A model generated the notes under the pieces. It was not told the origin of the DNA, searched no databases, and saw only the letters and a program-made list of their open reading frames with translations. Position numbers and translations under genes: made by a program. 64,000 nucleotides of DNA from Hymenobacter sp. J193 (GTDB lineage: Bacteria > Bacteroidota > Bacteroidia > Cytophagales > Hymenobacteraceae): the NCBI RefSeq assembly GCF_024700075.1, contig NZ_JAJONE010000004.1:124001-188000 (forward strand), given 5' to 3'. Positions 41,202 to 61,894 of the stretch are shown piece after piece (positions within the stretch are counted from its first letter, which is position 1; each line of letters begins with the position of its first letter).

Positions 41202-41258
41202 CATACGTAGGCGGGCCGAGACAATGTTTACACGCAAGGGTCCACCCAGTTGCATAAT
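41202..41258 (-). promoter_or_regulatory. Copper promoter of the DUF2231/oxidase operon
   Basis: Half-site ATTATGCAAC (41258-41249, minus), a TGTAAA-ending second half-site about 22 bp downstream, and a TACGTATG -7-like box at 41209-41202. The layout matches the other copper promoters in the window. Confidence 0.6.
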
Positions 41259-41326
41259 TTCAAGCACCACGGTAGCTGCGTAGGTACACCGTGCCCAGCT
41301 GCCGGCCGCTTTAGGGAGTGCCAAAA

Positions 41327-41360
41327 CGAAAAACGCCCGGCCACAGGGTCAGGCGTTTTA
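41327..41360 (-). terminator. Hairpin terminator after the Cys-rich gene
   Basis: On the minus strand AAAACGCC pairs with GGCGTTTT, with partial pairing inside, followed by TTCGTTTTGG, 17 bp after the stop at 41377. Confidence 0.6.
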
Positions 41361-41376
41361 AGCAGCATCGGGTAGC

Positions 41377-41574
41377 TTACTTAGCGGCGCAGCAGCTGGG
41401 GGCTCCTGCCGTGCAGGCCGGAGTGCCGGCCTGGGCGCAGTTTTGCACCAATGGGCAATCGGGGGTGCCCTTCAGCGGGCAATCAGCCGCGGCGGACGTG
41501 GGGCTGGTGAAGCCAAACAGCGCACCAGCGGAGAGCAACGCCGCAGCGCTGAACATCATCATCTTGTGTTTCAT
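41377..41574 (-). CDS. Small exported Cys-rich protein
   Basis: 65 residues: a signal peptide (MMMFSAAALLSAGALFG, cleavage near SAAA) and a mature part of about 35 residues with six Cys and repeating Pro-Leu/Pro-Ala spacing: DCPLKGTPDCPLVQNC, then GTPACTAGAPSCC. The spacing suggests a small metal-binding or disulphide peptide in the periplasm. It lies between the CopZ-like gene and the DUF2231/oxidase operon, on the same strand, with its own hairpin terminator. I know no named family. Confidence 0.7.
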   Translation of the reverse strand: MKHKMMMFSAAALLSAGALFGFTSPTSAAADCPLKGTPDCPLVQNCAQAGTPACTAGAPSCCAAK

Positions 41575-41668
41575 CGGTTCTAGTGATTAAGATGGGCCCG
41601 CCGGTACGGCCGCGGGGTAGTTTAAGAATCCACGGTCCGTACGTCGTGGGTAGCACTCAAAAGAGAAA

Positions 41669-41875
41669 TTAGGCCTTGGTAGCCTTGAAGCCGGCATCTT
41701 CCACCAGGGCCAGCACCTGCTCCTCGGTCACGTCGCCGGTCACGGTCAGGACCTTGTTGGGATTGGCCGTGTCGACCTGCCAAGTGGCAATGGCCTTCTC
41801 GCCGTTGAGGGTGGGCGTTACGGCTTTGATGCAGCCGCCGCAGTTGATGTTGGTGTTGAATTGAAGCGTTTTCAT
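41669..41875 (-). CDS. copZ: CopZ-like HMA copper chaperone
   Basis: 68 residues, a single heavy-metal-associated domain. The metal site is INCGGCIKAV (Cys 12 and 15 region, CxxC), followed by the usual beta-alpha-beta pattern ending VLALVEDAGFKA. The loop after the CxxC is typical of copper chaperones that hand Cu(I) to CopA or to a sensor. A strong copper promoter (AAATCATGCAAG plus TACTTTTG) stands 51-109 bp upstream. Symbol by similarity of fold and context. Confidence 0.88.
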   Translation of the reverse strand: MKTLQFNTNINCGGCIKAVTPTLNGEKAIATWQVDTANPNKVLTVTGDVTEEQVLALVEDAGFKATKA

Positions 41876-41925
41876 GGTAGTAAATGCATGGCGCCCTTGG
41901 TGGGCGGGTTCGGGTTTAAAACACC

Positions 41926-41984
41926 CAAAAGTAGCGGCACGTGCCCGGGAAGGGGTACAGAATTAAGCTTGAGGCTTGCATGAT
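41926..41984 (-). promoter_or_regulatory. Copper promoter of the CopZ gene
   Basis: On the minus strand: half-site ATCATGCAAG (41984-41975), second half-site AATTCTGTAC beginning about 20-21 bp later, and a perfect TAnnTTTG box, TACTTTTG (41933-41926), 51 bp from the start of the first half-site. The same three elements at the same spacing occur at 42714-42772. Confidence 0.72.
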
Positions 41985-42035
41985 TTGTATCAGCTGTGCC
42001 GCTACTGGCCCGCCTATCACGGCGCAGGACTTGCT

Positions 42036-42680
42036 TTAATGATGACTCATGCCCCCGCTTAGCAGGTGTTTGCCAACGACAAAGAGCAGCAGCAGCACCA
42101 GCCCGGCGATGAGCAGATAGCGGCCCCAGGGCTTCGGCAAAGCAGCGGCGTGACCCGCGGCCACGGCTTGGGCGTGGGCCTGCTGTTGCTGCCGCCACTT
42201 ACCGATGCGTCCCCAGGGTTTGTAGACCGAAATGGCGGTGGCCGCCAGCAAGACCACCAGCGCGGCGGCGGCATCAGCCAGCAGCTGCAGGCGTAGCCCG
42301 CGCAGGTCAGTCGTGGATAGGTCGGACTTGGCGGCTACCTCGGCCAGGTAGGTAACGGGCTGCATGTGCAGCAGCAGCAAGAGCGTGGCGCCCACTGTGA
42401 GCACCAGTTTCACCAGCACCCAGTAGTGCTTGAACAAGCCCCAGGGCGTACCCAGCGCCTGCACCACGCCGGTGGCCAGCGCGGCCAGGCTGGAGGGCAC
42501 GATAACAAACCAGCCGCTCAGGCCCATGGCCAGGTAGGCCGTGCGCACCAGTAAGGCATCGGAGCTGGTCAGGCCGGTGATGGCCAGGGCCAGGAACACG
42601 GCCACGGCTCCGAGCCAGCCCACCGAGAACGTGATGTGGGCGGTGAGCAGGAATTTGCGCAGGGCGGGAGCCAGGGTCAT
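42036..42680 (-). CDS. Conserved polytopic membrane protein of the copper cluster
   Basis: 214 residues from ATG 42680 (MTLAPALRKFLLTAHITFS). Five hydrophobic helices; the first has HITFSVGWLGAVAVFLAL, then GLSGWFVIVPSSLAALATG, TPWGLFKHYWVLVKLVL and LLLLLHMQPVTYL. The C-terminus ends SGGMSHH. These conserved blocks are recognisable in uncharacterised membrane proteins of Bacteroidota and Proteobacteria, sometimes annotated DUF2269-like; I cannot assign a reaction. A copper promoter identical in layout to that of CopZ lies 34-92 bp upstream, so copper or redox stress is its likely context. The frame is open further upstream through the promoter, which argues for the start chosen. Confidence 0.75.
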   Translation of the reverse strand: MTLAPALRKFLLTAHITFSVGWLGAVAVFLALAITGLTSSDALLVRTAYLAMGLSGWFVIVPSSLAALATGVVQALGTPWGLFKHYWVLVKLVLTVGATLLLLLHMQPVTYLAEVAAKSDLSTTDLRGLRLQLLADAAAALVVLLAATAISVYKPWGRIGKWRQQQQAHAQAVAAGHAAALPKPWGRYLLIAGLVLLLLFVVGKHLLSGGMSHH

Positions 42681-42713
42681 CAGCGGGGTATTTATGACGG
42701 GTAAACGACCCCG

Positions 42714-42772
42714 CAAAAGTAGGAGCGCCGCCCATGCCCGGCGTACAGAATTAGGCCGCGAACCAGCATGAT
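42714..42772 (-). promoter_or_regulatory. Copper promoter of the 42036-42680 gene
   Basis: Minus strand: ATCATGCTGG (42772-42763), then AATTCTGTAC at the same offset as in the CopZ promoter (GTACAGAATTA on the plus strand at 42743-42753), then TACTTTTG (42721-42714), again 51 bp from the first half-site start. Confidence 0.7.
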
Positions 42773-42797
42773 TTCCACGCCGGAACCCAAGAAAAAA

Positions 42798-42822
42798 GCC
42801 AGCCCGTACGCGACGGGCTGGC
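42798..42822 (-). terminator. Intrinsic terminator of the copper-storage gene
   Basis: Perfect 10-bp stem GCCAGCCCGT / ACGGGCTGGC with a 5-nt loop. Read on the minus strand it is followed by TTTTTTC, 21 bp after the stop codon. Confidence 0.85.
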
Positions 42823-42843
42823 TTCACACGGTATCAATAACAA

Positions 42844-43179
42844 TTAAGCGGCGATGCCCTGGCGGCAAGCCTGCTCGCAGCGGCGGCAAGCCTCGGCGCA
42901 CTCCTTGCAGTGCTGGGAGTGGGCGCCGTGCTTCTCGCACTCGTCGGCGCAGGCCTTACAGATTTCAGCACACTCCTTCAGCAGATGGGCGGCGTGCTCC
43001 GAGCCGCGGGCCACGAGGCGGGCGGTGAGGGCACACACGTCGGCGCAGTCGCGGTCCAACAGGACGCAGCGGGCCATCATCTTCACGTTGTCTTCCTGCA
43101 GGCAGGCCGTGGCGCAATGCTCGCAGGCGGCGATGCAGGCATTGAGGGCGTCGAGCAGGCTTTGGTTTTGGGTATGCAT
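42844..43179 (-). CDS. csp: Cys-rich four-helix-bundle copper-storage protein (Csp-like)
   Basis: 111 residues from ATG 43179 (MHTQNQSLLDALNAC). About 17 Cys are arranged with CxxxC and CxxC spacing along amphipathic helices: CIAACEHCATAC, CVLLDRDCADVC, CAEICKACADEC, CKECAEACRRCEQAC. This is the Csp/DUF326 pattern in which the Cys line the core of a four-helix bundle and bind many Cu(I) ions. There is no signal peptide, so it resembles cytosolic Csp3. A copper promoter lies upstream and a strong terminator downstream, giving a monocistronic unit. The longer upstream frame runs into the promoter and is rejected. Confidence 0.9.
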   Translation of the reverse strand: MHTQNQSLLDALNACIAACEHCATACLQEDNVKMMARCVLLDRDCADVCALTARLVARGSEHAAHLLKECAEICKACADECEKHGAHSQHCKECAEACRRCEQACRQGIAA

Positions 43180-43229
43180 GGGAAAGGTATATAAGTGAAC
43201 AAACAAGGCAACCCGACCGGGCTGCTGCC

Positions 43230-43288
43230 TAAGTATACCTCCCCCATGGCCCACGGTTTTGCATATTACTTCCCATCCCTTGCATGAT
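43230..43288 (-). promoter_or_regulatory. Copper promoter of the copper-storage gene
   Basis: Minus strand: ATCATGCAAG (43288-43279), AATATGCAAA (43267-43258) exactly 21 bp on, then TATACTTA (43237-43230) as a degenerate TAnnTTTG box 51 bp from the first start. Here both half-sites are nearly identical, which shows the direct-repeat nature of the element best. Confidence 0.72.
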
Positions 43289-43296
43289 TTGGGGCC

Positions 43297-43896
43297 TCAT
43301 CCCCCCACAACCGCAGCCATTTCGGCCCGCAGCAGCCGGCGATACGCGGAAGGCGAGCAGCGGGCCAGGCGCCGGAACTGGCCGGAGAAGTGCGCCAGGC
43401 TGGCGTAGCCCAGGCGCCGGGCAATGAGCCCCACGCTCAGGGAAGACGAAGTCAGGAGTTCCTGGGCATAGGCCAGGCGCTGACTAATAATGTAGGCCGC
43501 CAGCGTCTTATCGCCCACCAGGCGGGCAAAGGCCGCGCTGAGCTGCCCGTAGGTCAGGTCCAGCTCCCGGGCTACCGCCGCCCCAAAAGCCCGGTGCCGC
43601 AGGCTTTCACCCGGCTCGCGCAGCAGGCGGTTCACCGCCACGCTGACCCGTTCCACCAGGGTCTGGTGAAAGGTTTCGAGCAGGGCAAACCGCGCTGCTT
43701 CCAGCGTGGCCCGCAGGCGGGGCCAGTCCAGCTCCTCGGCCGTGCCCGCCACCGTGGCCGCGCCCAGGCGCACGTCGAGCACCTGCAAGCCCAGGCCTTC
43801 CAGCTCCTGCCGAACCACCCGGATACCGCGCGCGCACACCATGTGCTTGATGTAAAGCACAGTGGTGGGCGCAGCAGAATCGTGGCGATTAGGCAT
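43297..43896 (-). CDS. AraC-family regulator with N-terminal HMA-like domain (degenerate CxxC)
   Basis: 199 residues. The first about 70 follow an HMA/ferredoxin-like pattern: VLYIKHMVCARGIRVVRQEL, LGLQVLDVRLGAA, FALLETFHQ. The metal motif reads C-A-R-G, so the second Cys of the usual CxxC is a Gly; the paralogue at 57133 keeps CPQC. The C-terminal 100 residues hold two AraC helix-turn-helix units (FGAAVARELDLTYGQLSAAF and VGLIARRLGYASLAHFSGQF). It is the last gene of the cus operon, 3 bp after cusA. A copper-sensing activator of the repeated copper promoters is likely. The missing Cys may make this paralogue metal-blind or differently tuned. Confidence 0.85.
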   Translation of the reverse strand: MPNRHDSAAPTTVLYIKHMVCARGIRVVRQELEGLGLQVLDVRLGAATVAGTAEELDWPRLRATLEAARFALLETFHQTLVERVSVAVNRLLREPGESLRHRAFGAAVARELDLTYGQLSAAFARLVGDKTLAAYIISQRLAYAQELLTSSSLSVGLIARRLGYASLAHFSGQFRRLARCSPSAYRRLLRAEMAAVVGG

Positions 43897-43899
43897 AAC

Positions 43900-46800
43900 C
43901 TAGCGGGTAGGCAGCACCGGATTCAAATCCGAGGGCGGCGTAAGCGGCTGCGCGTTGAGCTCCTGCGGGTGGTCGTCCAAACCCGTTTCCTGGTGAGAGG
44001 CGAAGTACTGCGCCAAGGCCTTCTCCCCTACCAGCCAGAACACCACCGGCGTCACGATGATGTCGAGGAAGGTGGACGAGAGCAGGCCCCCGAGAATGAC
44101 GGTGGCCACCGGATACAGGATTTCCTTGCCCGGCGCGTCCTTGGCCAGCGTAAGCGGCACCAGGGCCAGGGCCGCCACCAGGGCCGTCATCAGCACCGGC
44201 ACCAAGCGTTCCAGGGAGCCGCGAATAATCATGGGGATGCCGAACTTCTCGCCTTCGTGCTCCACGAGGTGGATGTAGTGCGAAATCATCATGATGCCGT
44301 TGCGGGAGGCAATGCCGGTGAGCGTGATGAAGCCCACTAGCGAGGCAATGCTGAACGTGCCGCCGGTGAGCAGCACGGCCACCACCGAGCCGATGAGCGC
44401 CAGCGGGATGTTGAGCATAATCTGCCCCACCATGTAGCTGGACTTGAAGTGCGAGAACAAGACCAGGAAGATGCCGGCCAGCGAAAACAAGCTCAGCCAG
44501 AGTATTTTCTGCGAGGCCGACTGCTGGCTCTCGAATTGCCCGCCGTAGGTGAGGTAATACCCGGGGGGCAGCTTCACCTGCGCATTCACTTTGGCTTGAA
44601 TCTCCTTGACCGTGGAGCCCAAATCGCGCTCGGCCACGTTCAGGGAGATGGTGATGCGGCGCTGGGTGTTTTCGTGGTTGACGGTGTTGGGGCCCGGCTC
44701 GTACACGATGTCGGCTACCTGGCTCACCGGAATCATCGCGCCCGTGGGCGTTTCGATGCGGGTCTGGCCGATGGCGGCGATGTCGTTGCGCTGGGCTTCG
44801 GGCAGCTTCACCACCAGGTCGAAGCGCTTCTGCCCGTCGAGCATCTGCGAGACCACGGCGCCTTGGAACAGCGTTTCGAGGTCGCGCACCAGTTCGCCGC
44901 GGGCCATGCCGTAGGCGCGCAGGGCATCGTCCTTGGGCCGGATGAGCAGCTGAGGAATCTGAACCTGCTTCTCCACCTGCAGGTCCACCACGCCCGGTAC
45001 GGTAGATGCGGCAGTGCGCACCTCGTTGGCGTAGCGGCGCAGCTCTAGCAAATCGTTGCCAAACACTTTGATGGCCACCTGGGCGCGCACGCCCGACAAC
45101 AGGTGGTCGAGGCGGTGTGAAATGGGCTGGCCGATGTTCACGTTCACGCCCGTAATCAAACTGAGCTTCTCGCGCATGTCGGCCAGGATTTCGTCGCGGC
45201 TGCGCATGGTTTTGCCTTCCTTCTCCAGCTCGGCTTCGGTCTTGAAGGCCACCTCGATTTCCGAGTTGTTCACCGACTCGGCGTGCTCATCTAGTTCGGC
45301 CCGGCCCGTCCGGCGCGCGGTGTAGGCCACTTCCGGAATTTTGAGCATCTGCTGCTCGCCCAGGCTGCCCAGGCGGTTGGATTCGGTGAGCGAGGTGCCG
45401 GCCGGGGCCGAGAAATTGACCGTGAGCGAGCCTTCGTTGAAGGGCGGTAAAAACTCGGTGCCGAAAAATGGAATTAGCGCCATGGCTGCCACGAACAGCG
45501 CCCCGGTCACCCCAAGGATGGCTTTGGGGTGCTGCAGGCCCCAGCCCAGCAGGCGGGTGTCCTTTTTCTTGAGCCAGCGCACCAGCCCACCGTCGGTTTC
45601 GGGGTGGTCCATCTGCTTCATCTGGGGCAGCAAATAGTAGCAGAGCACCGGCGTGACGGTGAGCGACACGAATAGCGAGGCCACGATGCTGGTGATGTAG
45701 GCAATGCCCAGCGGCGCGAAAATGCGGCCTTCCATGCCTTCCAGCGCGAACAGGGGCAAAAACACCAGCACCACGATGATGGTGGCGTACACGATGGAGT
45801 TGCGCACCTCGGAAGAAGCGGCATAGATGACTTTTAAGACGGGCTGGGGATACGCTTTTTGCTTGTTTTCGCGGAGGCGCCGGTACACGTTTTCCACGTC
45901 CACGATGGCATCATCCACCAGCTCGCCGATGGCAATGGCCAGGCCGCCGAGCGTCATGGTGTTGATGCTGATGCCCGCCGCCCGGAACACCAGCGCCGTA
46001 ACCAGCAACGACAACGGAATGGCCACCAGCGAAATAAAGGTGGTGCGCACGTTCAGCAGAAAGGCAAACAGCACGATGACGACCAGAATGGCGCCGTCGC
46101 GCAGGGCTTCCTCCACGTTGGAAATCGAGGACTCGATAAACTCGGACTGCTTGAACAGGCGCGTATTCACCTGCACGTCATTGGGTAAAGAGGGCTTGAG
46201 CTCCACCAGCGCTTTTTCCACGGCTTCAGTCAAACCCACGGTAGCCGCTCCGGGCTGCTTTTCGATGCTCAGAATCACGGCGGGCTTTCCGTTCACGCTG
46301 CCGTCGCCGCGCTTGAAGCGGGCCCCGAACTCCACCTTGGCAATGTCCGCTACACGTATGGGCGACTGCTCGCGGTAGCCGACGATGATGTTCTCGATGT
46401 CGGTGACCGAGCGCAGCCGGCCCAGGTTGCGAATCAGTACTTCCGAGCCGTTGCGGTCGAAGAAGTTACCCGTGGTGTTCAGGTTAGATTGGCGCAGGGC
46501 CTCTTCCACCTGGTTCACGGTCAGGCCGGTGGCGTTCAGCCGGGGCATGTCGAGCAGCACCTGGTACTGCAGGTTGTCGCCCCCGATGGGAATGACCTGG
46601 GCCACGCCCGGAATGGATAGCAGGCGCTGCCGCACGGTGTAGTTGGCCAGGGTGCGCAGGTCGGCCGCGTTGGTTTCCTTGCCGCCCGATAGCCCCACCA
46701 GCATAATCTGGCCCATGACCGAGGAGATGGGCCCCAGCACCGGCGTGATGCCTTCGGGCAGCTGCTCGCCGGTGGTTTGCAGCTTCTCGCTCACAATCTG

Positions 46801-47121
46801 GCGGGCGGTGAAGATGTCGGTGCCGTAGTCGAACTCCACGAACACCATGCCCAGGCCGATGGCCGAGTTGGAGCGCACGGCCGACACGCCGGTGGCCCCG
46901 TTCAGGGCCGTTTCCACGGGCAGCGTCACCAGGGCTTCCAGCTCTTCGGGCGCCATGCCGGGCGCTTCCAGAAACACGGTCACGCGGGGGCGGTCCAGGT
47001 CGGGCAGCACGTCCACGGGCAGCTGCCGGGCCGTGTAGGAGCCGGCAATCAGGAGACCCACGGCAAAGGCCAGCATCAGCAGCCGGTTTTGCAGGGCAAA
47101 GCGAATTATCTTGTCTAGCAT
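43900..47121 (-). CDS. cusA: CusA/CzcA-family heavy-metal RND pump
   Basis: A 1,073-residue inner-membrane proton-driven pump with two 6-helix repeats and large periplasmic loops. N-terminus MLDKIIRFALQNRLLML and the helix IV block GGLAIAIGELVDDAIVDVEN are those of heavy-metal RND proteins. The porter domain has ARRTGRAELDEHAESVNNSE where E. coli CusA has its TGRAE segment. I do not see an obvious methionine triad there, so copper/silver specificity rests on operon context. Unlike the pump at 5317 it has no fused TolC part; the channel is a separate gene (49570). It follows the NTF2-like gene by about 100 bp and ends 3 bp before the HMA-AraC regulator. Confidence 0.93.
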   Translation of the reverse strand: MLDKIIRFALQNRLLMLAFAVGLLIAGSYTARQLPVDVLPDLDRPRVTVFLEAPGMAPEELEALVTLPVETALNGATGVSAVRSNSAIGLGMVFVEFDYGTDIFTARQIVSEKLQTTGEQLPEGITPVLGPISSVMGQIMLVGLSGGKETNAADLRTLANYTVRQRLLSIPGVAQVIPIGGDNLQYQVLLDMPRLNATGLTVNQVEEALRQSNLNTTGNFFDRNGSEVLIRNLGRLRSVTDIENIIVGYREQSPIRVADIAKVEFGARFKRGDGSVNGKPAVILSIEKQPGAATVGLTEAVEKALVELKPSLPNDVQVNTRLFKQSEFIESSISNVEEALRDGAILVVIVLFAFLLNVRTTFISLVAIPLSLLVTALVFRAAGISINTMTLGGLAIAIGELVDDAIVDVENVYRRLRENKQKAYPQPVLKVIYAASSEVRNSIVYATIIVVLVFLPLFALEGMEGRIFAPLGIAYITSIVASLFVSLTVTPVLCYYLLPQMKQMDHPETDGGLVRWLKKKDTRLLGWGLQHPKAILGVTGALFVAAMALIPFFGTEFLPPFNEGSLTVNFSAPAGTSLTESNRLGSLGEQQMLKIPEVAYTARRTGRAELDEHAESVNNSEIEVAFKTEAELEKEGKTMRSRDEILADMREKLSLITGVNVNIGQPISHRLDHLLSGVRAQVAIKVFGNDLLELRRYANEVRTAASTVPGVVDLQVEKQVQIPQLLIRPKDDALRAYGMARGELVRDLETLFQGAVVSQMLDGQKRFDLVVKLPEAQRNDIAAIGQTRIETPTGAMIPVSQVADIVYEPGPNTVNHENTQRRITISLNVAERDLGSTVKEIQAKVNAQVKLPPGYYLTYGGQFESQQSASQKILWLSLFSLAGIFLVLFSHFKSSYMVGQIMLNIPLALIGSVVAVLLTGGTFSIASLVGFITLTGIASRNGIMMISHYIHLVEHEGEKFGIPMIIRGSLERLVPVLMTALVAALALVPLTLAKDAPGKEILYPVATVILGGLLSSTFLDIIVTPVVFWLVGEKALAQYFASHQETGLDDHPQELNAQPLTPPSDLNPVLPTR

Positions 47122-47222
47122 CGGTGGTTAGCGCAAAGAGGAAGAAGCGAGAGCGGCCGGGTGGCCCCTCCCCTCCCGGAATCGGCAGCATCCCGGGCCG
47201 CAGCCCAGGCCCGCCGGACAGC

Positions 47223-47735
47223 TTATTTTTTGACGCGGGGGGTGCGCGCCGACGAGTGGGTGCTCATGATTTGCCACTGCCCGGCGGCGTTTTTGCGCAG
47301 CACCGAAGTGGCCACCCCGCGGCGCACGATGGGCGCCTTGGCTTCCTTGTCCTGAGGGCCTTTTTTGAGGTTGATGGTGTAGGTGTAGGTTTCCGTCGCA
47401 AAAGCGTAGGGACCGTCGACCTGCACGGTGGCTTTGTAGTCGCTGAAGGTGAAGGCACTGAATTCCTTGAGCTCGGGAGCCAGGTGATGCTCGGCGTAGT
47501 GCCGGTAGGTGCCTTCCACCCCACCCGACTCGAACACCTGGGAGTTGGCCGTGAACAGGCGGGCCGTGCCAGTAGTGTCGAGCTTTTGCACGGCCTGCTG
47601 GTACTTGGTCAGCACCGCTTTCACCGCAGTCTCGTCGGCGGCGGAGCTGGCGGCCGGGGCCGTCTGGGCCCGCGCTGTCGCGGCAGTGAGAGAAAGCGTG
47701 GCGGTCAGCGCCGCGAAAGCAAAGAGGTTTTTCAT
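47223..47735 (-). CDS. Exported NTF2/SnoaL-like (DUF4440-type) protein
   Basis: 170 residues from ATG 47735 (MKNLFAFAALTATLSL); signal peptide cleaved near ARAQ. The mature part has the cone-shaped NTF2-like pattern: ETAVKAVLTKYQQAVQKLD, ARLFTANSQVFESGG, then a long beta sheet (FSDYKATVQVDGPYAFATE) ending IMSTHSSARTP. Such proteins bind small molecules or metals in a central pocket. It lies between the adaptor and pump genes, 34 bp after cusB. A periplasmic helper role is an inference from position only. Confidence 0.78.
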   Translation of the reverse strand: MKNLFAFAALTATLSLTAATARAQTAPAASSAADETAVKAVLTKYQQAVQKLDTTGTARLFTANSQVFESGGVEGTYRHYAEHHLAPELKEFSAFTFSDYKATVQVDGPYAFATETYTYTINLKKGPQDKEAKAPIVRRGVATSVLRKNAAGQWQIMSTHSSARTPRVKK

Positions 47736-47769
47736 GGGGAGGGAGGAAGCTGCCACCGCGGAGCGGGAC

Positions 47770-48915: not shown

Positions 48916-48927
48916 ATCGGGGGAGCA

Positions 48928-49557: not shown

Positions 49558-49569
49558 GATGGTTGACGG

Positions 49570-53487: not shown

Positions 53488-53557
53488 TGTTCGGCGAGGG
53501 TAAAACCAGGAAGATGAGGGGGGCGCAACTAGGCGCCGGGCGGACACGACAATGCAA

Positions 53558-53599
53558 AGGCCCGCCCCGGACATAGCAGAGCTATGCCAGGGCGAGCCT
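53558..53599. terminator. Hairpin between the His-rich gene and the small membrane gene
   Basis: AGGCxCGCCC (53558 on) pairs with GGGCGxGCCT (ends 53599), with an inner perfect CATAGC / GCTATG stem. No T-run, so attenuation or partial termination is possible inside the proposed operon. Confidence 0.5.
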
Positions 53600-53616
53600 A
53601 GTGCGCGTCAAACCAA

Positions 53617-54099: not shown

Positions 54100-54477
54100 G
54101 AGAGGCGCTAAGCAACCGCAAAAGTAGACTTCTCCACGAAAAGGCGGTACTGCCTATTTACCCCATTTCTAAATAAAGAGTTTCCGGGCCGTTCGCGCGG
54201 CAGGCCGCTTAGCCTCTAAAAAGGACCGCAAAGGGCTACCAAGCCGTTTTAAGCGGCGGTTAGGCGAAATGCCCCCAATTGATGACCGCAAAATTATGCA
54301 AGCCTTCGGCCGGATTATGTAAATCCATTGCCGGCCCACTACGTGCAAATTATGCAAGTTTCAAGTGGGATTCCGTACCAACCCCGCCGCAGATGCGCCG
54401 TTCCTTTGTAAGGAGCTTTCTAGCCTGGGGAACAATGTGTTTCCCGGCCCAATGCAGCATTACAGCTGCTTATTTTT
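54100..54477. other. Divergent control region between the cus-side operon and copA
   Basis: No gene. It holds a -7 box TACTTTTG for the minus-strand gene (54126-54119), and two complete copper elements for copA (54293-54323 and 54349-54379) with a TTCCTTTG box at 54401-54408. The copA leader is about 65 nt. Confidence 0.65.
54293..54408 (+). promoter_or_regulatory. Double copper promoter element of copA
   Basis: Element A: ATTATGCAAG (54293) and ATTATGTAAA (54314), 21 bp apart. Element B: ATTATGCAAG (54349) and ATTCCGTACC (54370), also 21 bp apart. TTCCTTTG at 54401 is 52 bp from the start of element B, as in the other copper promoters. This is the only promoter in the window with two full copies. 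Confidence 0.75.
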
Positions 54478-56751
54478 ATGGAACCAACAACCAAGACTGA
54501 AACCCTCGACATTGAAGGCATGACCTGCGCGTCCTGCGCTTCCTTCGTCGAAAAGTCCTTGACCCGCACGCCCGGGGTGCAGCGGGCCATGGTCAACTTC
54601 GCCACCGAAAAAGCCACCATCGACTACCTGCCAACTCAAGCCACCCCGGCTACCCTTAAACAGGCGGTCGTCAATGCTGGCTACGGCGTCACCGAGCGAG
54701 CCCCCGATACCTCAGCTGCCGACCGGCAAGCCGAAATCGACCAGCAGAAGGCCCTGGCCTATGTCAAGCTCAAGCGCCGCTTTTGGGTAGCCACGGTGCT
54801 GGCCATCGTCATCATGCCGCTGAGCATGCTCATGCTCTGGCCGGCGATGATGGCCCGCGTGAACATGCAGTGGCTGAACTACGGTCTGCTGGTGCTGACC
54901 ATCCCGGTGCTGCTGTACAGCGGGCGCGAATTCTTTACCTCGGCCTGGAACGGCTTCAAGCACCGGGCCGCCAACATGGATACGCTCATTGCGGTGGGTA
55001 CCGGCGCCGCTTTCCTCTACAGCCTCGCGGCCACGGTGGTGCCCGGCTGGTTTATGCGCCGGGGCATTATGCCCGAAGTGTATTATGACACCACGGCCAC
55101 CATCATTGCCCTGATTTTGCTGGGCAAGGTGCTGGAACTGCGCGCCAAAACGCAAACCTCGGCGGCCATCAAGGCCCTGATGGGTTTGCAGGCGAAGACG
55201 GCCCGGGTGGTGCGCCCCGACGGCCAGGAAGTGGACGTGCCCATTGAGCAGGTGCAGCTCAACGACCTCATCGTGGTACGTCCCGGCGAGAAAGTGGCGA
55301 CTGATGGCCTCATCGAGGAAGGTCGCTCCGCGGTGGACGAGGCCATGCTCACGGGCGAAAGCCTGCCGGTGGAAAAGAAAACCGGGGACCCCGTGTTCGG
55401 GGCCACGCTTAACAAAACCGGTTCGTTCCGTTTCCGCGTGACCAAAGTGGGGGCCGATACCATGCTTTCCCAGATTGTGAAGCTGGTGGAGGACTCCCAG
55501 GGCAGCCGCGCCCCCATTCAGCGCCTGGCCGATAAGGTCAGCGCCATTTTCGTGCCCACGGTGGTGGTCATTGCCATACTCACCTTTGTGCTCTGGTTTG
55601 ACCTCGCGCCCGTGGAAGCCCGTCTGCCTTTGGCCCTGGTCAACTTTGTGGCCGTGCTCATCATCGCCTGTCCCTGCGCCCTAGGGCTGGCCACGCCCAC
55701 GGCCATTATGGTCAGCACTGGCAAGGGAGCCGAGCACGGCGTGCTCATCCGCAACGCCGAGGCCTTGGAAAAAGCCCACCAGGTCAACACCGTGCTGCTC
55801 GACAAAACCGGCACCATCACCCGCGGCGAACCGGCTGTGACCGACTTTGTGCCGGCCGAGGGCCAGGACGCCGCCCAGCTGCTGCAGGTAGTGGCCGCAG
55901 TGGAACGGCAGAGCGAGCACCCGCTGGCCGAAGCCGTGGTGCGCTATGCTGACACCCAGCAGGCCCCTATCATTGCCGCCACCGGTTTCCAGGCCATCGA
56001 AGGCAAAGGGGCGCAGGCGTCCGTTAATGGGCAGGCGGTGCTTATCGGCAATTTCCGCCTGCTCGATGAGGCCGGTATTTCGCTTTCATCCGCGGTGCGC
56101 CGGCAAGCCGACGAGCTGCTGGGCCAGGCCAAGACCGTGCTCTACGTGGCCATGAACCAGCAGGCCGTGGGCCTCATCGGCGTGGCCGACACCGTGCGCG
56201 AAACGTCGGCGGCGGCCATCAAACGGCTGCAGGGCATGGGCATCGAAGTGGTGATGATGACCGGCGACAATCCCCAAACCGCGGCGCAGGTGGCCGGGCA
56301 GGTGGGCATCAAGCGCTACTTCGCCGAGGTGCTGCCCGCCGATAAAGCGGGCAAGGTGAAGGAGCTGCAGGCCGAGGGCCGCATCGTGGCCATGGTGGGC
56401 GACGGCATCAACGACGCCCCGGCCCTGGCCCAGGCCGACATCGGGCTGGCCATGGGCGGCGGCACCGACGTGGCCATGGAAGCAGCCGGCATCACGCTCA
56501 TGCGTTCGGATTTACAGGGCGTGGTCACGGCCATTGAGCTCTCGCGCCAGACCATCCGCACCATCAAGCAAAACCTGTTTTTCGCCTTTATCTACAACAC
56601 GCTGGGTATTCCCATCGCAGCGGGTTTGCTCTACCCCTTCTTCGGACTGCTTCTCTCGCCCATGCTCGCGGCCGGCGCCATGGCCCTGAGCTCGGTGTCG
56701 GTGCTCACCAACTCGCTGCGGCTGCGCAGCTTCTCCCCTGCTAAAAACTGA
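54478..56751 (+). CDS. copA: Cu(I)-exporting P1B-ATPase CopA
   Basis: 757 residues. One N-terminal HMA domain with GMTCASC (14-20), eight membrane helices with the CPC copper site (398-400), phosphorylation motif DKTGT (442-446), [14 protein letters not shown] (641-646). The last helix pair carries [11 protein letters not shown] and [15 protein letters not shown], the Asn/Tyr and Met/Ser residues that define copper pumps. It exports cytosolic Cu(I) to the periplasm where the multicopper oxidase and cus system act. First gene of an operon with the cupredoxin and the second HMA-AraC regulator (4-bp and 0-bp gaps), driven by the double copper promoter. Confidence 0.97.
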
Positions 56752-56755
56752 GGTT

Positions 56756-57132
56756 ATGGATACCACTGAAATCATCGTGACCCTGACCGGGCTGGCCCTG
56801 TCGGCTTTTGTCATCTGGTACTTCTTCTTTTCCGCCCGCCAGACGGCCAGCGCCGTTTCCACCGCCAGCGGGGTGCAGGAAGTGGACATCACTGTCAAAG
56901 GGGCTACTCGCCCGACGTCATCGAGGTGGAGCGGGGCAAGCCCGTGCAGCTGAGCTTTTACCGCGACGAGGAAAACTCCTGCTCCGAGGAGCTGCTCATG
57001 CCCGACTTCAGCATCCGCCGCGACCTGCCCGCCTTTAAAACGACCCTGGTGGAGCTGCTGCCCCAGCAGGCGGGTACCTTTACGTTCACCTGTGGCATGG
57101 GCATGCTGCGCGGTAGCTTAGTCGTTAAATAG
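56756..57132 (+). pseudogene. Cupredoxin-domain membrane-anchored protein, one-base frameshift
   Basis: An N-terminal membrane helix (IIVTLTGLALSAFVIWYFFF) and a cupredoxin domain: EVDITVKGGYSPDVIEVERG once the frame is restored, then PVQLSFYRDEENSCSEELLM and GTFTFTCGMGMLRGSLVVK. Cys, Met and His-like ligands in FTCGMGM fit a copper site. The frame breaks at G4 (56900-56903); one more G restores a 125-residue protein ending at 57132. It starts 4 bp after copA and its stop abuts the regulator start, so it belongs to the copA operon. The break may be technical. Confidence 0.78.
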
Positions 57133-57765
57133 ATGCCGCTCATGAACTCCCAACTCCGCTCCGGCTTCACGCTGCCCGCCCCCGGCACCCACCGGCTGCT
57201 GATAAAGAACATGGTGTGCCCCCAGTGCATCCGAGTGGTGAGGGAAGACCTGACGGCCTTGGGCCTGCAAGTACACCGCGTGGTGCTGGGCGAGGCCGAC
57301 GTGAGTACCGCCGACGGTCAGGACCCGGACCTGGAGCCCGTGCGCACCAGCTTGGAGGCCGCGGGCTTTGCCTTGCTCGAAGACCCGCGGGCCCAGCTGG
57401 TGGAGCAAATCAAGACCCTGCTGGTGACGCTCATTCATTATCCCGAGCCGGGCCCGCGCTTGCTGACTTACTCGGATTACCTGGTCCAGCACCTGGGGCG
57501 GGATTACCACTACCTCTCCCACCTGTTTTCCTCCGAGGAAGGGTTGACCATCGAGAAATTCATCATCCGCCAGAAGGTGGAGCGGGCCAAGGAGCTCATC
57601 GGCTACGGCGAGCTGAGCATTGCCCAGGTGGCCGGCCAGCTGGGCTACAGCTCCCCGGCCCACCTCTCGCGGCAGTTCGGACAGGTGACGGGTTTGACTC
57701 CTACCGAATTTCAGCGGTTGGGGCCCGCCAGCCACGCCCGACGCAGCCTGGACGCGCTGCTGTAG
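57133..57765 (+). CDS. AraC-family regulator with N-terminal HMA domain (intact CxxC)
   Basis: 210 residues. Residues about 20-90 form an HMA-like domain: HRLLIKNMVCPQCIRVVRED with an intact CPQC, LGLQVHRVVLGEADV, and AAGFALLEDP. The C-terminal part has two AraC HTH units: SDYLVQHLGRDYHYLSHLFS and LSIAQVAGQLGYSSPAHLSR followed by QFGQVTGLTPTEF. The HMA domain in place of a normal AraC sensor suggests direct Cu(I) sensing or loading by CopZ. It is the last gene of the copA operon and the best candidate activator of the ATYATGCAAG promoters. The paralogue at 43297 has lost the second Cys. Confidence 0.9.
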   Translation: MPLMNSQLRSGFTLPAPGTHRLLIKNMVCPQCIRVVREDLTALGLQVHRVVLGEADVSTADGQDPDLEPVRTSLEAAGFALLEDPRAQLVEQIKTLLVTLIHYPEPGPRLLTYSDYLVQHLGRDYHYLSHLFSSEEGLTIEKFIIRQKVERAKELIGYGELSIAQVAGQLGYSSPAHLSRQFGQVTGLTPTEFQRLGPASHARRSLDALL

Positions 57766-57773
57766 CCTCCGAA

Positions 57774-57834
57774 ATTATGCAAGCAAAAAGGCCAACGGTG
57801 TAAAAACCGGACAGGTGGCCTGGGCGTTTATAAT
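57774..57834 (+). promoter_or_regulatory. Copper promoter of the DUF305 gene at 57865
   Basis: ATTATGCAAG (57774), ACGGTGTAAA exactly 21 bp on (57795), and TATAAT-like sequence at 57829-57834, about 55 bp from the first start. Confidence 0.65.
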
Positions 57835-57864
57835 GCTCACCATCAGACCCCACCGACCGTGAGC

Positions 57865-58479
57865 ATGAACCGCTTATTCCGTTTGCCTATTTACTCCCTG
57901 CTTGTGCTTGTTTCCCTGTTTTCGGCCTGTAAAATGGACCACGACATGGACGATATGAAGCACGACTCTGCGCTGATGAAAATCATGATGGACATGATGA
58001 CGCAGATGGACGCACAGGCCAAGACCCAGGACCCTGACCACGACTTCGCCGCCCAGATGGTGTTGCACCACGATGCCGCCATCAAGATGAGCGAGGAAGA
58101 ACTTCGCGCGGGCAGCAACCAGGAGATGAAGACCATCGCCCAGGACGTCATTACCAAGCAGCGCGCCGAAATCACGCAATTCAACACGTTCCTGAGCGGG
58201 CACCAGCCCACGCAGCCGCTGGTGCCGCAGTTCAACCAAATCCAGAAAACCAACATGGACCGCATGATGGCCGCGAGCAACGCCCGCGCCATGACCATGC
58301 GCACCGACGTGGACTACGCAGCGATGATGATTGACCACCACCAAGCGGCCATCGACAACTCGGAGGCGCTGCTCCAGCACGGCCGCAACGCCACGATGCG
58401 TCAGCTGGCGCAGGCCATCATCACCGACCAGCGCCAGGAGATTGCCACGCTGCAAAACTGGCTGACGCGCAACCGTTAA
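57865..58479 (+). CDS. DUF305 lipoprotein
   Basis: 204 residues from ATG 57865 (MNRLFRLPIYSLLV); a GTG two codons earlier is less likely. Lipoprotein signal ends LFSAC, then Met/Asp-rich KMDHDMDDMKHDSALM. Two DUF305 half-repeats follow: FAAQMVLHHDAAIKMSEEEL with KTIAQDVI, and AAMMIDHHQAAIDNSEALL with RQLAQAIITDQRQEI. A copper promoter precedes it and a strong terminator follows, so it is a single-gene unit. Homologous to the genes at 51569 and 61914. Confidence 0.9.
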   Translation: MNRLFRLPIYSLLVLVSLFSACKMDHDMDDMKHDSALMKIMMDMMTQMDAQAKTQDPDHDFAAQMVLHHDAAIKMSEEELRAGSNQEMKTIAQDVITKQRAEITQFNTFLSGHQPTQPLVPQFNQIQKTNMDRMMAASNARAMTMRTDVDYAAMMIDHHQAAIDNSEALLQHGRNATMRQLAQAIITDQRQEIATLQNWLTRNR

Positions 58480-58497
58480 TACCGGCTTTGCTCCACG

Positions 58498-58528
58498 AAA
58501 AAGGCAGCTCTTGCGGGGCTGCCTTTTT
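58498..58528 (+). terminator. Intrinsic terminator after the DUF305 gene
   Basis: Perfect 11-bp stem AAAAAGGCAGC / GCTGCCTTTTT with a 9-nt loop, 18 bp after the stop. Confidence 0.9.
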
Positions 58529-58582
58529 CATTTCCTGTAAGCAAATGACCGACTAGGTCGTTAGCGGGCTTCTTTCTTGGAA

Positions 58583-59371
58583 ATGTTGACCTTGCTCTGT
58601 TTGTCTGTTTTTCGTTACCTCTTTTACTTCTGCCTTGCCGCCAGCCTGCTTTTAACTGGGTGCCGGTCATCCGCCGTGGTTCCTAATTTTCCCGCGACCC
58701 CCGGGTATCACCACCCGCGCTTGGCCCAGCGCGTTGACTCGGTCACGGTTATCCCGGCCCCTGCGCGCCCCAGCACCCCGCCGCGACGGACAAAGGTGGC
58801 TGTGCAGCCTCCGGTCGTGAGCCCGCAGGTTCCTGTGCCCCGGGTGGAAAGAAAGCCGGCTGGCGAGCTGGGCCAGAGATATGCCAAAGCAGCGCCCGGA
58901 GACACTGTGCGCCGCGCTACCCAGCCGACGCCACCACGCGGCCTGCGTCGGCAGTTCCCGACCAAACTTTTCAGCGCCCAGACGCTGGTGCATTACAGCC
59001 TGCACTTTCTTTTCCCGGCCGTGCTAGCGCTGGTGTTTTTTCCTGCGATGTGGCAGGCCGCCTACCTGATGATGTTGGCCACGATGCTCATGGACCTGGA
59101 CCACCTGCTGGCCAAACCCATTTTCGACCCGCTGCGCTGCAGCGTGGGCTATCATCCGCTGCACTCTTTTTACGCCTTCCCGGTGTATGCGCTGCTCCTG
59201 CTGCTGCCGGCATTGCACCCCGTCGCCGTGGGCTTGCTTTTCCACCTGTTCACCGATACCGTGGACTGCCTGTGGAACTTCAGCCACTGCAACGAGTGCT
59301 ACCTCAGCTCCCGGATTTACGCCTTGCGCAACGGGGTGAAAAAGCTACTGGGCCGCAAGGTGGTTGAGTGA
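58583..59371 (+). CDS. Lipoprotein-signal protein with C-terminal DUF6122-like membrane domain
   Basis: 262 residues from ATG 58583 (a TTG at 58577 is possible). N-terminal lipoprotein signal (AASLLLTGC) and a Pro-rich linker of about 100 residues, then a four-helix membrane domain: TLVHYSLHFLFPAVLALVFF, YLMMLATMLMDLDHLLA, IFDPLRCSVGYHPLHSFYAF and LLFHLFTDTVDCLW. His/Asp residues in the helices (HY..H, DLDHL, HPLHS, HLFTD) are the conserved pattern of DUF6122, which resembles metal-dependent membrane hydrolases. Such a lipid-anchored Pro-rich extension on DUF6122 is unusual. No copper half-site directly upstream. Reaction unknown. Confidence 0.72.
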   Translation: MLTLLCLSVFRYLFYFCLAASLLLTGCRSSAVVPNFPATPGYHHPRLAQRVDSVTVIPAPARPSTPPRRTKVAVQPPVVSPQVPVPRVERKPAGELGQRYAKAAPGDTVRRATQPTPPRGLRRQFPTKLFSAQTLVHYSLHFLFPAVLALVFFPAMWQAAYLMMLATMLMDLDHLLAKPIFDPLRCSVGYHPLHSFYAFPVYALLLLLPALHPVAVGLLFHLFTDTVDCLWNFSHCNECYLSSRIYALRNGVKKLLGRKVVE

Positions 59372-59436
59372 GTCAGGATAGCCGCTTGTACAGCGCCTAG
59401 GCACTCCTAATAAATACCCTGCAGGAGTTCCCGGAA

Positions 59437-59497
59437 ATTATGCAAGCCATAGTTAAGCTTTTATTATTTGTAATCATTCTAAATAAGCCGAACTTTG
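59437..59497 (+). promoter_or_regulatory. Copper promoter of the TonB-dependent receptor gene
   Basis: Half-site ATTATGCAAG at 59437 and GAACTTTG at 59490-59497 as -7 box, 53 bp apart. The second half-site is weak here; an ATTATTTGTAA lies at 59463, out of the usual 21-bp register. Confidence 0.6.
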
Positions 59498-59525
59498 TGC
59501 CATCGTTACCCTTTAAGGCACTCTG

Positions 59526-61805
59526 ATGACCCGTACTTTTTCCCGCGATACCGCCGTTGCACTTGGCAGTCTGGCGTTGGCTACCCTTGCTTTCCTTCCC
59601 ACCGCCCACGCCCAGCAGGCGCCGGCTGCAGACTCCACCCGCCGCCAGACCCTGAGCGAAGTAACCGTGACCGGAGTAGGTCCGCACTTTGCGGCCCCCG
59701 TGGACGGCACCACGATTACGGCCGGCCGCCGCAACGAGCTCATCAAGCCCCGTGAGGTCAATGCTAATCTGGTGCAGAACAACATGCGCCAGGTGATGGC
59801 CCGCGTGCCCGGCCTGATGGTGTGGGAAAACGACGGCTCGGGCCAGCAGATTAACGTGGCCACCCGCGGCCTGAGCCCCAACCGCAGCTGGGAGTTTAAC
59901 ACCCGCCAGAACGGCTACGACATGAGCGCCGACGCCTTTGGCTACCCCGAAGCCTATTACAACCCGCCCATGGAAGCGGTGGAGCGCATCCAGCTGCTGC
60001 GCGGCGGCGCCGGCCTGCAATTCGGGCCCCAGTTCGGGGGCTTGCTCAACTACGAGCTCAAGCGCGGGGCCCGCGACAAGAAAGTTGAGATTGAAACCAG
60101 CAACACGGCCGGCTCTAACGGCCTGTTCAACTCCTACAACGCCGTGGGCGGCACCGTGGGCAACGTGAACTACTACGCCTATTACCGCCACCGGCAGGGC
60201 AACGGCTGGCGTCCCTCCAACCAGTTCACCGTCGACGACTTGCACGGCAACGTGCACGTGGCCCTCACCGAGCGCCTGACCCTAAACGCGGAGCTCACCT
60301 ACCTGACAAACCGCCTGCAGCAGCCCGGCGGGCTCACCGACGCGCAATTCGCGCAGGACAGCCGCCAGAGCACCCGGGACCGCAACTGGCTCAGCACCCC
60401 CTGGCTGATTCCGGCCCTCACCCTGGACTACAAAGCCAGCGAGCGCACCCACATCAACCTGAAGACCTTTGGCCTGGTGGCCGCCCGCAACAGCGTGGGC
60501 TTTGTGGCTGGCCTGCCCGCCTTGGACACCGTAAACCGTCGGACCCGGCAGTTTGCCGCCCGTCAGGTGGACCGCGACGACTACCGCAACCTGGGCGCCG
60601 AGTTGCGCCTGACCCAGGACCTGGACTTTTTGGGGTACACCCACACGTTGGCCACCGGTTTGCGGGCCTACCGGGCCACCACGCTACGCCGCCAGCGCGG
60701 CACGGGCACCACGGGTTCGGACTACGACCTGAGCTTGAGCGGCAACGGGCTTTTTACCAACGAGTTTGATTTCACTACTACCAACGGGGCGGCGTTTGCC
60801 GAACTGCTGCTGCACGCCGGCACCCGCCTGAGCATCACGCCGGGCGTTCGCTACGACTACCTGCGCAACACCAGCACCGGCTACCTGGGCCGGGCCGCCA
60901 ATGGCACCGAAAACCGCTTGCCCGACCAGTCCAGCCAGCGCAACGTGCTCTTGTACGGCCTGGGTACTGAATTCATCGTCTCCCCTACGACCAACCTGTA
61001 TGCCAACTATTCGCGCGCTTTTCGCCCCGTGCTCTTCGGCGACCTGGTGCCGCCGGCCACGGCCGACGTCATCGACCCCAACCTGAAGGACGCCCGCGGC
61101 TACACCGCCGAAGTGGGCTACCGCGGCACCTTCAAGAACTGGCTGCGCTTCGACGTGGGCTACTTCTTCCTCAACTACGAGGACCGCATCGGCACCATCC
61201 GCCGGCCCGTACCCGGCGGCACCGCCGGCCAGACCCAGCAGTTCCGCACCAACCTGGGCCGCACCCAAACCCATGGCTTGGAAGCCTACGCCGAATTGGA
61301 CCTGATTCACTCAATCACCGGCAACTTCAACCTGCCCCACCTCGACCTGTTCGCGGCCCTGAGCCTGCTCGACGCCCGCTACGGGAACCTGCCCGTGACC
61401 ACGCTCACCGGCACGGGCGTCGGCACCCAGATTGTGGAAAGCAACCTGGACGGCAAGTACGTGGAGAACGCCCCGCGCCAGACCCTGCGCACGGGCCTCA
61501 CCTTCGCTCACAAAGGTGTGTCGGTGACCGGGCAGTTCAGCCACGTGGGCAAGGTGTACGCTGACGCCAACAACACCGAGGAGCCCACGGCCAATGCCCA
61601 GACCGGCGCCATTCCGGCCTACCAGGTGGCCGACTTCTCCGCCACCTGGAAGCTAGGCGCCGAGGGCCGCTACCGCCTCAGCGGCGGCGTCAACAACGTG
61701 TTCGACGCGCGCTACTTCACGCGCCGGGCGGGTGGTTACCCCGGCCCGGGCATCCTGCCCGCCGACGGCCGCACGTGGTTCGCGGGCCTGGGCCTCACGC
61801 TGTAA
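59526..61805 (+). CDS. TonB-dependent receptor of the copper regulon
   Basis: 759 residues. Signal peptide (LALATLAFLPTAHAQ), TonB box region TLSEVTVTG, plug domain with VMARVPGLMVWENDGSGQQI and RGLSPNRSWEFNTRQNG, ERIQLLRGGAGLQFGPQFGG, and a 22-strand barrel ending GLGLTL with a typical C-terminal aromatic-rich segment. The plug pattern is FecA-like. No carboxypeptidase-like domain is seen at the N-terminus. A copper half-site and -7 box stand 30-90 bp upstream, so expression probably follows copper. Whether it imports a copper chelate, takes up iron under copper stress or exports is not readable. Confidence 0.9.
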   Translation: MTRTFSRDTAVALGSLALATLAFLPTAHAQQAPAADSTRRQTLSEVTVTGVGPHFAAPVDGTTITAGRRNELIKPREVNANLVQNNMRQVMARVPGLMVWENDGSGQQINVATRGLSPNRSWEFNTRQNGYDMSADAFGYPEAYYNPPMEAVERIQLLRGGAGLQFGPQFGGLLNYELKRGARDKKVEIETSNTAGSNGLFNSYNAVGGTVGNVNYYAYYRHRQGNGWRPSNQFTVDDLHGNVHVALTERLTLNAELTYLTNRLQQPGGLTDAQFAQDSRQSTRDRNWLSTPWLIPALTLDYKASERTHINLKTFGLVAARNSVGFVAGLPALDTVNRRTRQFAARQVDRDDYRNLGAELRLTQDLDFLGYTHTLATGLRAYRATTLRRQRGTGTTGSDYDLSLSGNGLFTNEFDFTTTNGAAFAELLLHAGTRLSITPGVRYDYLRNTSTGYLGRAANGTENRLPDQSSQRNVLLYGLGTEFIVSPTTNLYANYSRAFRPVLFGDLVPPATADVIDPNLKDARGYTAEVGYRGTFKNWLRFDVGYFFLNYEDRIGTIRRPVPGGTAGQTQQFRTNLGRTQTHGLEAYAELDLIHSITGNFNLPHLDLFAALSLLDARYGNLPVTTLTGTGVGTQIVESNLDGKYVENAPRQTLRTGLTFAHKGVSVTGQFSHVGKVYADANNTEEPTANAQTGAIPAYQVADFSATWKLGAEGRYRLSGGVNNVFDARYFTRRAGGYPGPGILPADGRTWFAGLGLTL

Positions 61806-61825
61806 CCGCGGCGTTTAACTCGGAA

Positions 61826-61894
61826 ATTATGCAAGCCTGGGCGGGATTGTCGCAAATCCACGCCCGGGCTTTGCCGTTTTCAAGGTTAGCTTTT
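61826..61894 (+). promoter_or_regulatory. Copper promoter of the DUF305 gene at 61914
   Basis: ATTATGCAAG (61826) and a diverged second half-site TTGTCGCAAA (61847), 21 bp on. TAGCTTTT at 61887-61894 may be the -7 box. Its distance of about 61 bp is larger than elsewhere. Confidence 0.58.

Follow-up and report, generated by a model that had tools for sequence, protein, structure and literature searches.

How do Bacteroidota sense copper in the cytosol? To our knowledge, this is not settled, and the question is raised anew by a cluster of copper genes in Hymenobacter sp. J193, located in the window analyzed here, that is, the whole stretch of 64,000 nucleotides from contig NZ_JAJONE010000004.1 (positions 124,001 to 188,000). 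We describe an operator of two direct half-sites that precedes seven transcription units of this cluster on both strands. We consider it probable that the window sites and their counterparts in distant genera are one operator, read by AraC-type regulators with a copper-chaperone-like (HMA) domain, hereafter the HMA-AraC family, with class II activation and Cu(I) as the signal; this shared switch is likely an answer to the question. Other candidates have been considered in the phylum: a Bizionia genome study reports that copper sites are missing from MerR and CopY-like proteins, and its suggested copper regulators are ArsR proteins and response regulators resembling CusR (PMC11213822).

A common operator before the copper genes

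The original prediction had named nine sites before at least eight transcription units. We scanned both strands of the window with a matrix of 36 positions derived from 152 distinct Hymenobacter sites, a training set that excludes the window and the sister plasmid and takes in orthologous promoters of close relatives. The nine best hits are exactly the nine named sites, with scores from 47.6 to 13.1, and the next hit scores 8.5. The maxima of 100 simulated windows (first-order Markov model) have a mean of 5.8 and a largest value of 16.0; eight of the nine sites score above all simulated windows, whereas the site at 41258, assigned to a DUF2231 gene (13.1), falls within the chance range. The shared promoter element is thus borne out, and of the proposed units seven are well supported as carrying the operator and the DUF2231 unit is weak; the only other homolog compared (L166) has upstream DNA too short to reach the site position.

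There are exactly seven copies of the half-site consensus ATYATGCAAG in the window, every one inside the copper cluster. Allowing one mismatch adds 41249-41258 in the cluster and 24363 outside it. This count alone is unremarkable (9 found versus 5.44 expected; 11 of 100 shuffles equal or exceed it), so the case depends on the position and context of the sites.

The host genome has 5.66 Mb, and the window belongs to its contig C4. Copper regions are doubled within C4 (200,696 bp) and C6 (195,109 bp), the copies being offset by about 100.5 and 102.6 kb, and seven pairs of 3-kb pieces from the two copies are 99.8-99.97% identical with small indels; both contigs are probably circular plasmids assembled almost twice. 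Because of the doubled copies, sites were counted once per plasmid. Raw matches to ATYATGCAAG number 27 in the host genome versus 5 for the reversed-pattern control: 22 are doubled copies of 11 sites on the two plasmid contigs and 5 are chromosomal. The extended form AAATYATGCAAG is present at 11 of 11 plasmid sites and at none of the 5 chromosomal matches. A two-block pattern with 0-1 mismatches gives 16 raw and 8 unique matches, all at plasmid copper promoters, and with two mismatches it gives 7 chromosomal matches, near the control of 5. Enrichment of matches at copper genes, the check set in advance, was therefore found, the 0-1-mismatch matches lying solely at plasmid copper promoters. 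The cluster on C6 is paralogous to that of the window and has sites before copA (two), DUF305, and CopZ.

The operators of the window, their promoter boxes, and the genes behind them are as follows.

54291..54326, + strand: distal copA operator (AAATTATGCAAG ... GGATTATGTAAATCC); score 47.6, best in the window and also top with the other-genera matrix (see below); no -7 box in register
54347..54382, + strand: proximal copA operator; score 43.9; 125-136 bp before copA in the window and relatives
54401..54408, + strand: copA -7-like box TTCCTTTG; TTTG at +56, the dominant offset among 166 Hymenobacter sites
54478..56751, + strand: copA, encoding a Cu(I) P-type ATPase that has an HMA domain; above cut-off for Pfam and TIGR01511
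57772..57807, + strand: DUF305 operator; score 42.0; begins 7 bp past the stop codon of HMA-AraC 1
57859..58479, + strand: DUF305/CopM-type protein; Pfam DUF305 and NCBIfam CopM above cut-off
59435..59470, + strand: TonB receptor operator; score 28.5; half-site 1 intact, half-site 2 degenerate
59490..59497, + strand: TonB receptor -7-like box GAACTTTG; TTTG at +57
59526..61805, + strand: TonB-dependent receptor (Pfam)
61824..61859, + strand: second DUF305 operator; score 36.5; half-site 2 weak
61914..62548, + strand: second DUF305 gene; frame interrupted between 61914 and 62069, with the other frame matching DUF305
43255..43290, - strand: Csp operator; score 33.7; begins 7 bp past the stop codon of HMA-AraC 2
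43230..43237, - strand: Csp -7-like box TATACTTA; GTATA kept in the Csp promoters of relatives
42844..43179, - strand: Csp1-like Cys-rich protein, probably for copper storage; Pfam DUF326 above cut-off, NCBIfam Csp1 52.9 bits, below the cut-off of 100
42739..42774, - strand: membrane-protein operator; score 19.0; half-site 1 poor (ATCATGCTGG), half-site 2 strong
42714..42721, - strand: membrane-protein -7 box TACTTTTG; TTTG at +55; kept in L156 and L158
42036..42680, - strand: 214-aa protein, labeled "membrane protein" in the original prediction; no Pfam match
41951..41986, - strand: CopZ operator; score 38.9; 108-111 bp before CopZ at four places
41926..41933, - strand: CopZ -7 box TACTTTTG; TTTG at +55
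41669..41875, - strand: CopZ-like copper chaperone; Pfam HMA above cut-off
41225..41260, - strand: weak candidate operator for DUF2231; score 13.1; about 200 bp 5' of the gene at 39877-41055

No Rfam family matched the window at gathering thresholds, and a sigma-70 scan of 41000-44000 returned one site, near chance, with a model ill-suited to Bacteroidota promoters.

Half-sites and the -7 box

The best window sites are direct repeats with a 21-bp period. As predicted, a second half-site follows the first by 21 bp (at most two mismatches) at six sites, namely both copA sites, CopZ, the membrane protein, Csp, and DUF305 at 57774. The sites at 61826 and 59437 (TonB receptor) are outside this list, and at 41258 the spacing is 22 by eye.

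Some window sites are followed by a TAnnTTTG-like -7 box that begins some 52 bp downstream of half-site 1. At four of the nine sites (CopZ, membrane protein, proximal copA, and TonB receptor), to which the predicted fixed offset is hereby restricted, the distance from half-site 1 to TTTG is 55-57 bp. The Csp promoter has TATACTTA in the -7 register, and the flanks of the matrix hits hold no proper -7 box in register at the distal copA site, either DUF305 site, or 41258. The spacings of 55 and 61 bp proposed for the DUF305 promoters are thus unsupported, a proper box being found at neither. At several DUF305 promoters of relatives (L090, L093, and L099), a CCGTTTnnG-like segment was seen by eye in place of the box.

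The proposed class II geometry, a 21-bp direct repeat with its proximal half-site over the presumed -33 region, recurs in distant genera, and the -7 box agrees with it only in part. Where a TAnnTTTG-like box occurs, its offset from the operator is fixed, both in 25 distant promoters and among the 166 Hymenobacter sites, and the class II position is a prediction from the sequence.

The HMA-AraC regulators

Two genes of the cluster encode HMA-AraC paralogs that are 37% identical to each other, one of them next to a metal pump gene.

57133..57765, + strand: HMA-AraC regulator 1 (MVCPQC); HTH_18 above cut-off; HMA domain by family profile against solved structures; AlphaFold2 model
43297..43896, - strand: HMA-AraC regulator 2 (MVCARG, second Cys lost); HTH_18 above cut-off
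43900..47121, - strand: CusA/CzcA-family RND pump gene, 5' of HMA-AraC 2; TIGR00914 above cut-off

Both paralogs carry an AraC-type double helix-turn-helix (HTH_18 scores of 63.6 and 58.9 bits; cut-off 33.6). The AlphaFold2 model of HMA-AraC 1 consists of a beta-alpha-beta-beta-alpha-beta domain, a helix, and then the AraC domain, with a mean predicted local distance difference test (pLDDT) value of 87.6 and a predicted template modeling score of 0.79. The predicted elements of the HMA domain are strands 20-25, 46-51, 54-58, and 80-82 and helices 30-42 and 67-76; the AraC helices span residues 113-196, and ten-residue pLDDT means are 90-96 over residues 21 to 90. A profile of 26 family members matches the HMA domains of ATP7B (E 7e-20), CopZ (E 2e-5), and CopA and, separately, AraC-type DNA-binding domains. 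The Pfam HMA scan of single sequences finds a match at E 1 in 3 of the 26 members and misses the other 23.

The two cysteines of the MxCxxC loop, C29 and C32, are invariant in all 40 distinct orthologs of HMA-AraC 1. Most of 65 distant family members have the MxCxxC loop, mostly as CxRC, and some read SxxC. A third HMA-AraC protein is encoded on the chromosome (L175; C1:1652534-1653061) with 44% identity. Among the papers listed by searches of an open-access collection, which misses most subscription journals, none describes an HMA-AraC copper regulator or its operator.

The reading frame of the small gene between copA and HMA-AraC 1 (56756-57132) seems broken, like that at 61914-62548; given the indels between the assembly copies, sequencing error is possible in both.

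Conservation within Hymenobacter

Among the closest relatives found, those of the window regulator at 73% identity or more all belong to Hymenobacter. In 51 loci of such relatives (922 kb), AAATYATGCAAG occurs 90 times versus 0 for the reversed controls. When the window and C6 are added to these loci, 80 of 101 sites have a homolog from the window cluster at most 600 bp downstream on the same strand. Of the 21 sites without such a homolog, 14 were inspected; other open frames stand behind some of them and nothing recognizable behind others. The distance from site to gene start is nearly constant for each gene, mostly 75-93 bp for DUF305 and the TonB receptor, 125-136 bp for copA (proximal site), and 108-111 bp for CopZ, with exceptions such as 42, 44, and 215 bp at DUF305.

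Upstream of CopZ and Csp, the half-sites and the box region are kept amid diverged sequence, and the operator is conserved in most of the Hymenobacter CopZ promoters compared. The layout of the Csp operator is common to relatives, mostly with AAATGATGCAAG, and half-site 1 of the TonB receptor likewise precedes the receptor in L076 and L111. The membrane-protein site is kept in three of six homologs: half-site 2 is retained in L156, L157, and L158, with TACTTTTG in L156 and L158 and TACTTTTA in L157, and the site is poorly kept in L163, L164, and L167.

The fetched Hymenobacter sets overlap in part and related strains are dependent samples. The 166 distinct sites are distinct 63-mers from 226 raw ones, chosen by half-site 1 alone. 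Half-site 2 has TGYA at +25 in 67 of them, and TTTG lies at +56 in 49, at +55 in 10, and at +57 in 4 (63 of 166 in total); no other offset accounts for more than 7.

Two further observations concern these sites. In the window and in close relatives, the distal copA operator precedes its proximal counterpart by 56 bp; in other Hymenobacter (L082, L096, L098, L099, and L111) a site of this kind is found farther upstream, at about 0.9-1.25 kb, and different DNA intervenes. The third base of ATnATGCAAG seems to track the target gene, with T at the copA and DUF305 sites compared, C at CopZ, and mostly G at Csp.

Occurrence across Bacteroidia

The HMA-AraC family is present in 154 of 296 Bacteroidia genomes (search with paralog 1, E 1e-15). 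A copA-like gene is found within 4.5 kb of the regulator in at least 27 of 59 distant loci, a lower bound because 39 of these stretches span at most about 7.6 kb. Self-similarity was computed for 25 distant copA promoters (L234, probably without an operator, was kept, and L214, with 20 bp of upstream DNA, was dropped beforehand); among offsets of 10-40 bp, the one peak is at 21 (z 7.8; the next value is 2.6 at offset 10). Their Gibbs motif comprises AATnnTnTAA-type half-sites 21 bp apart, followed by TTTG at +60 in 17 and at +59 in 4 of the 25, which corresponds to the +56 register of Hymenobacter.

In 17 of the 25 loci, the operator starts between -15 and +60 bp from the HMA-AraC stop codon. 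This placement after the regulator resembles the DUF305 operator behind HMA-AraC 1 and the Csp operator behind HMA-AraC 2 in the window. Conservation at the first motif positions may be coding, since in many sequences they overlap the regulator stop codon.

A matrix from other genera (24 promoters, L234 left out) ranks four window operators 1-4 and places 57774, 43288, and 42772 within the top 14; only the first-ranked operator exceeds the maxima of all 60 simulations (largest 12.7). The class pattern gives 0 matches in the own genome, probably because half-site 2 of Hymenobacter departs from the class consensus.

Which protein reads the operator

The operator follows the HMA-AraC family in three comparisons. 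(i) Among 120 Hymenobacter genomes (own genome excluded; presence defined by a paralog 2 search at E 1e-20), the 70 with HMA-AraC hold 225 sites versus 22 for the control, whereas 49 without it hold 31 versus 14; three or more sites are found in 37 genomes with the regulator and in none without (Mann-Whitney 1.6e-11 for the genus comparison). (ii) The class-wide pattern has 387 matches versus 12 for the control in the 154 genomes with the regulator and 88 versus 12 in the 142 without; at least one match is found in 108 of 154 versus 33 of 142 genomes, and at least two in 74 versus 7. (iii) Of 20 genomes with HMA-AraC in trans, 11 have the operator at the copA promoter, versus 1 of 20 without HMA-AraC (Fisher 0.0012), scored positive at p 0.05 against shuffles, both sets being subsets of the available genomes picked by hand from listed copA places, mostly best-scoring first. 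The in-trans state was judged from listed coordinates; the regulator of G095 is about 1.3 kb from copA, and some in-trans genomes carry further regulators at unlisted positions. One in-trans positive (L301) has a low score and no TTTG. TTTG is in register in 10 of 20 in-trans and 2 of 20 regulator-less copA promoters, in each set once at a non-significant match.

Several results weigh against reading by HMA-AraC. All three association statistics ignore the shared ancestry of the genomes. Nine of the 20 in-trans copA promoters lack the operator, TTTG is out of register in 5 of the 9 window sites and absent from +55 to +57 in 103 of the 166 Hymenobacter sites, and no operator-like site was found within about 10 kb of the chromosomal HMA-AraC. 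HMA-AraC 2 lacks the second cysteine of the metal loop, with CxRG in 28 of 30 distinct orthologs, and keeps the domain. The copA promoter of G010 (L263) has a good operator with TTTG at +59, and HMA-AraC was not detected in this genome even at E 1e-3. Four genomes without detected HMA-AraC (E 1e-8), G209, G255, G130, and G163, hold 18, 16, 15, and 7 class-pattern matches and supply 56 of the 88 matches of the regulator-less group. Genes behind the G209 and G255 sites look partly stress-like rather than copper-related; judged by their sequence, they may be CsbD-like, YtxH-like, YceI-like, and OmpA-like. The genes behind the G130 sites form no clear group.

The operator grammar thus reaches wider than copper. 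In several Bacteroidia, the same promoter with two half-sites at a fixed distance was also seen before stress-looking genes (L338-L342, L345, L348, L349, and L351), and in some of these genomes HMA-AraC was not detected. In G098, one site precedes an HMA-AraC gene itself (SxxC type) and another a Csp-like gene. At stress genes, this grammar may be read by relatives of HMA-AraC whose metal ligands are altered.

The HMA-AraC family is the best candidate reader of the operator. The alternative that survives best, though we consider it doubtful, is a division of targets between the paralogs, HMA-AraC 1 serving the right arm (copA, DUF305, and TonB receptor; T as third base) and HMA-AraC 2 the left arm (CopZ, membrane protein, and Csp; C or G), so that one set would be controlled without full metal binding. 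The 37% identity of the paralogs is consistent with it, as are the positions of the DUF305 and Csp operators, each adjoining one regulator gene, and the third bases, namely T at copA and DUF305, C at CopZ, and G in most relatives' Csp sites; however, this base tracks the gene as much as the arm.

It is unlikely that a different protein favoring 21-bp direct repeats reads the operator, with HMA-AraC linked to it by neighborhood and phylogeny. Another AraC-type protein or a LytTR regulator would be suitable, as LytTR regulators likewise use direct repeats with a period of about 21 bp, and the many matches in G209, G255, G130, and G163 point in this direction, these assemblies being 94-99% complete with few HTH_18 domains (2, 2, 4, and 1, respectively). 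However, they comprise 50-210 contigs and may miss the gene through fragmentation, and both the 1 of 20 versus 11 of 20 contrast at copA and the restriction of three or more sites to Hymenobacter genomes with HMA-AraC argue for the HMA-AraC family.

Even less probable is repression by the regulator at these sites, lifted in the presence of copper: a repressor could also act from a proximal half over the -33 region, but tandem direct half-sites at a fixed distance upstream of -33 are typical of AraC-type activators. Finally, we rejected a dispersed repeat or non-functional relics of duplicated promoters as highly improbable. The tandem copA sites and the paralogous cluster on the second plasmid do indicate local duplication, but in different genera and in front of unrelated genes the half-sites, the 21-bp period, and the -7 offset are retained while the intervening and flanking sequence diverges.

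Proposed mechanism

The analysis shows the DNA side, namely the operator with its geometry and class-wide conservation, its association with copper genes, and its statistical association with the regulator; from this we infer binding, the copper signal, and activation as follows: (i) the operator pairs the direct half-sites AAATnATGCAAG and, roughly, AATnnTGTAAAnCC at a spacing of 21 bp; (ii) in canonical promoters, the Bacteroidota -7 box TAnnTTTG begins about 52 bp downstream of half-site 1; (iii) the signal is likely Cu(I), which would occupy the CxxC loop in the N-terminal, copper-chaperone-like domain; (iv) both half-sites would be bound most likely by the CxxC protein encoded at 57133-57765, with or without the paralog at 43297-43896; and (v) the promoter-proximal half, overlapping the -33 region, would allow recruitment of RNA polymerase, as by AraC at araBAD (class II). 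With somewhat less confidence than in the operator and its reader, we favor the extension that HMA-AraC is a main cytosolic Cu(I) sensor-activator family of Bacteroidia, reading a conserved 21-bp direct-repeat operator at a fixed distance from TAnnTTTG.

Comparison with known systems

Sequence alone provides here the regulator family, the operator, its position relative to the promoter, and the candidate class-wide targets copA, CopZ, DUF305/CopM, Csp, and TonB receptor, and each of these parts can be set beside a described system. Bacteroidota promoters are of the -33/-7 type with the -7 box TAnnTTTG; a part of the promoters described here has a TAnnTTTG-like box, set at a constant distance behind the operator, and the difference from plain promoters of this type is that the proximal half-site would occupy the -33 position. 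The N-terminal domain of HMA-AraC is similar to CopZ and to the HMA domains of ATP7B and CopA by profile match and, in HMA-AraC 1 and most distant members, by the MxCxxC loop after strand 1, but it is fused to a DNA-binding domain. CueR of the MerR family also switches on copA and a chaperone gene in response to cytosolic Cu(I), which for HMA-AraC is a proposal; however, CueR has an unrelated fold and binds an inverted repeat within a long spacer. The closest likeness is to the AraC/XylS activators (araBAD I1-I2, MelR, and XylS), which share the double helix-turn-helix, direct half-sites 21 bp apart, as in the araBAD geometry, and, by prediction, a proximal half over -35/-33. Unlike these activators, HMA-AraC is a short protein in which a copper-chaperone-like sensor replaces the sugar or effector domain, and it would act at a Bacteroidota -7 promoter.

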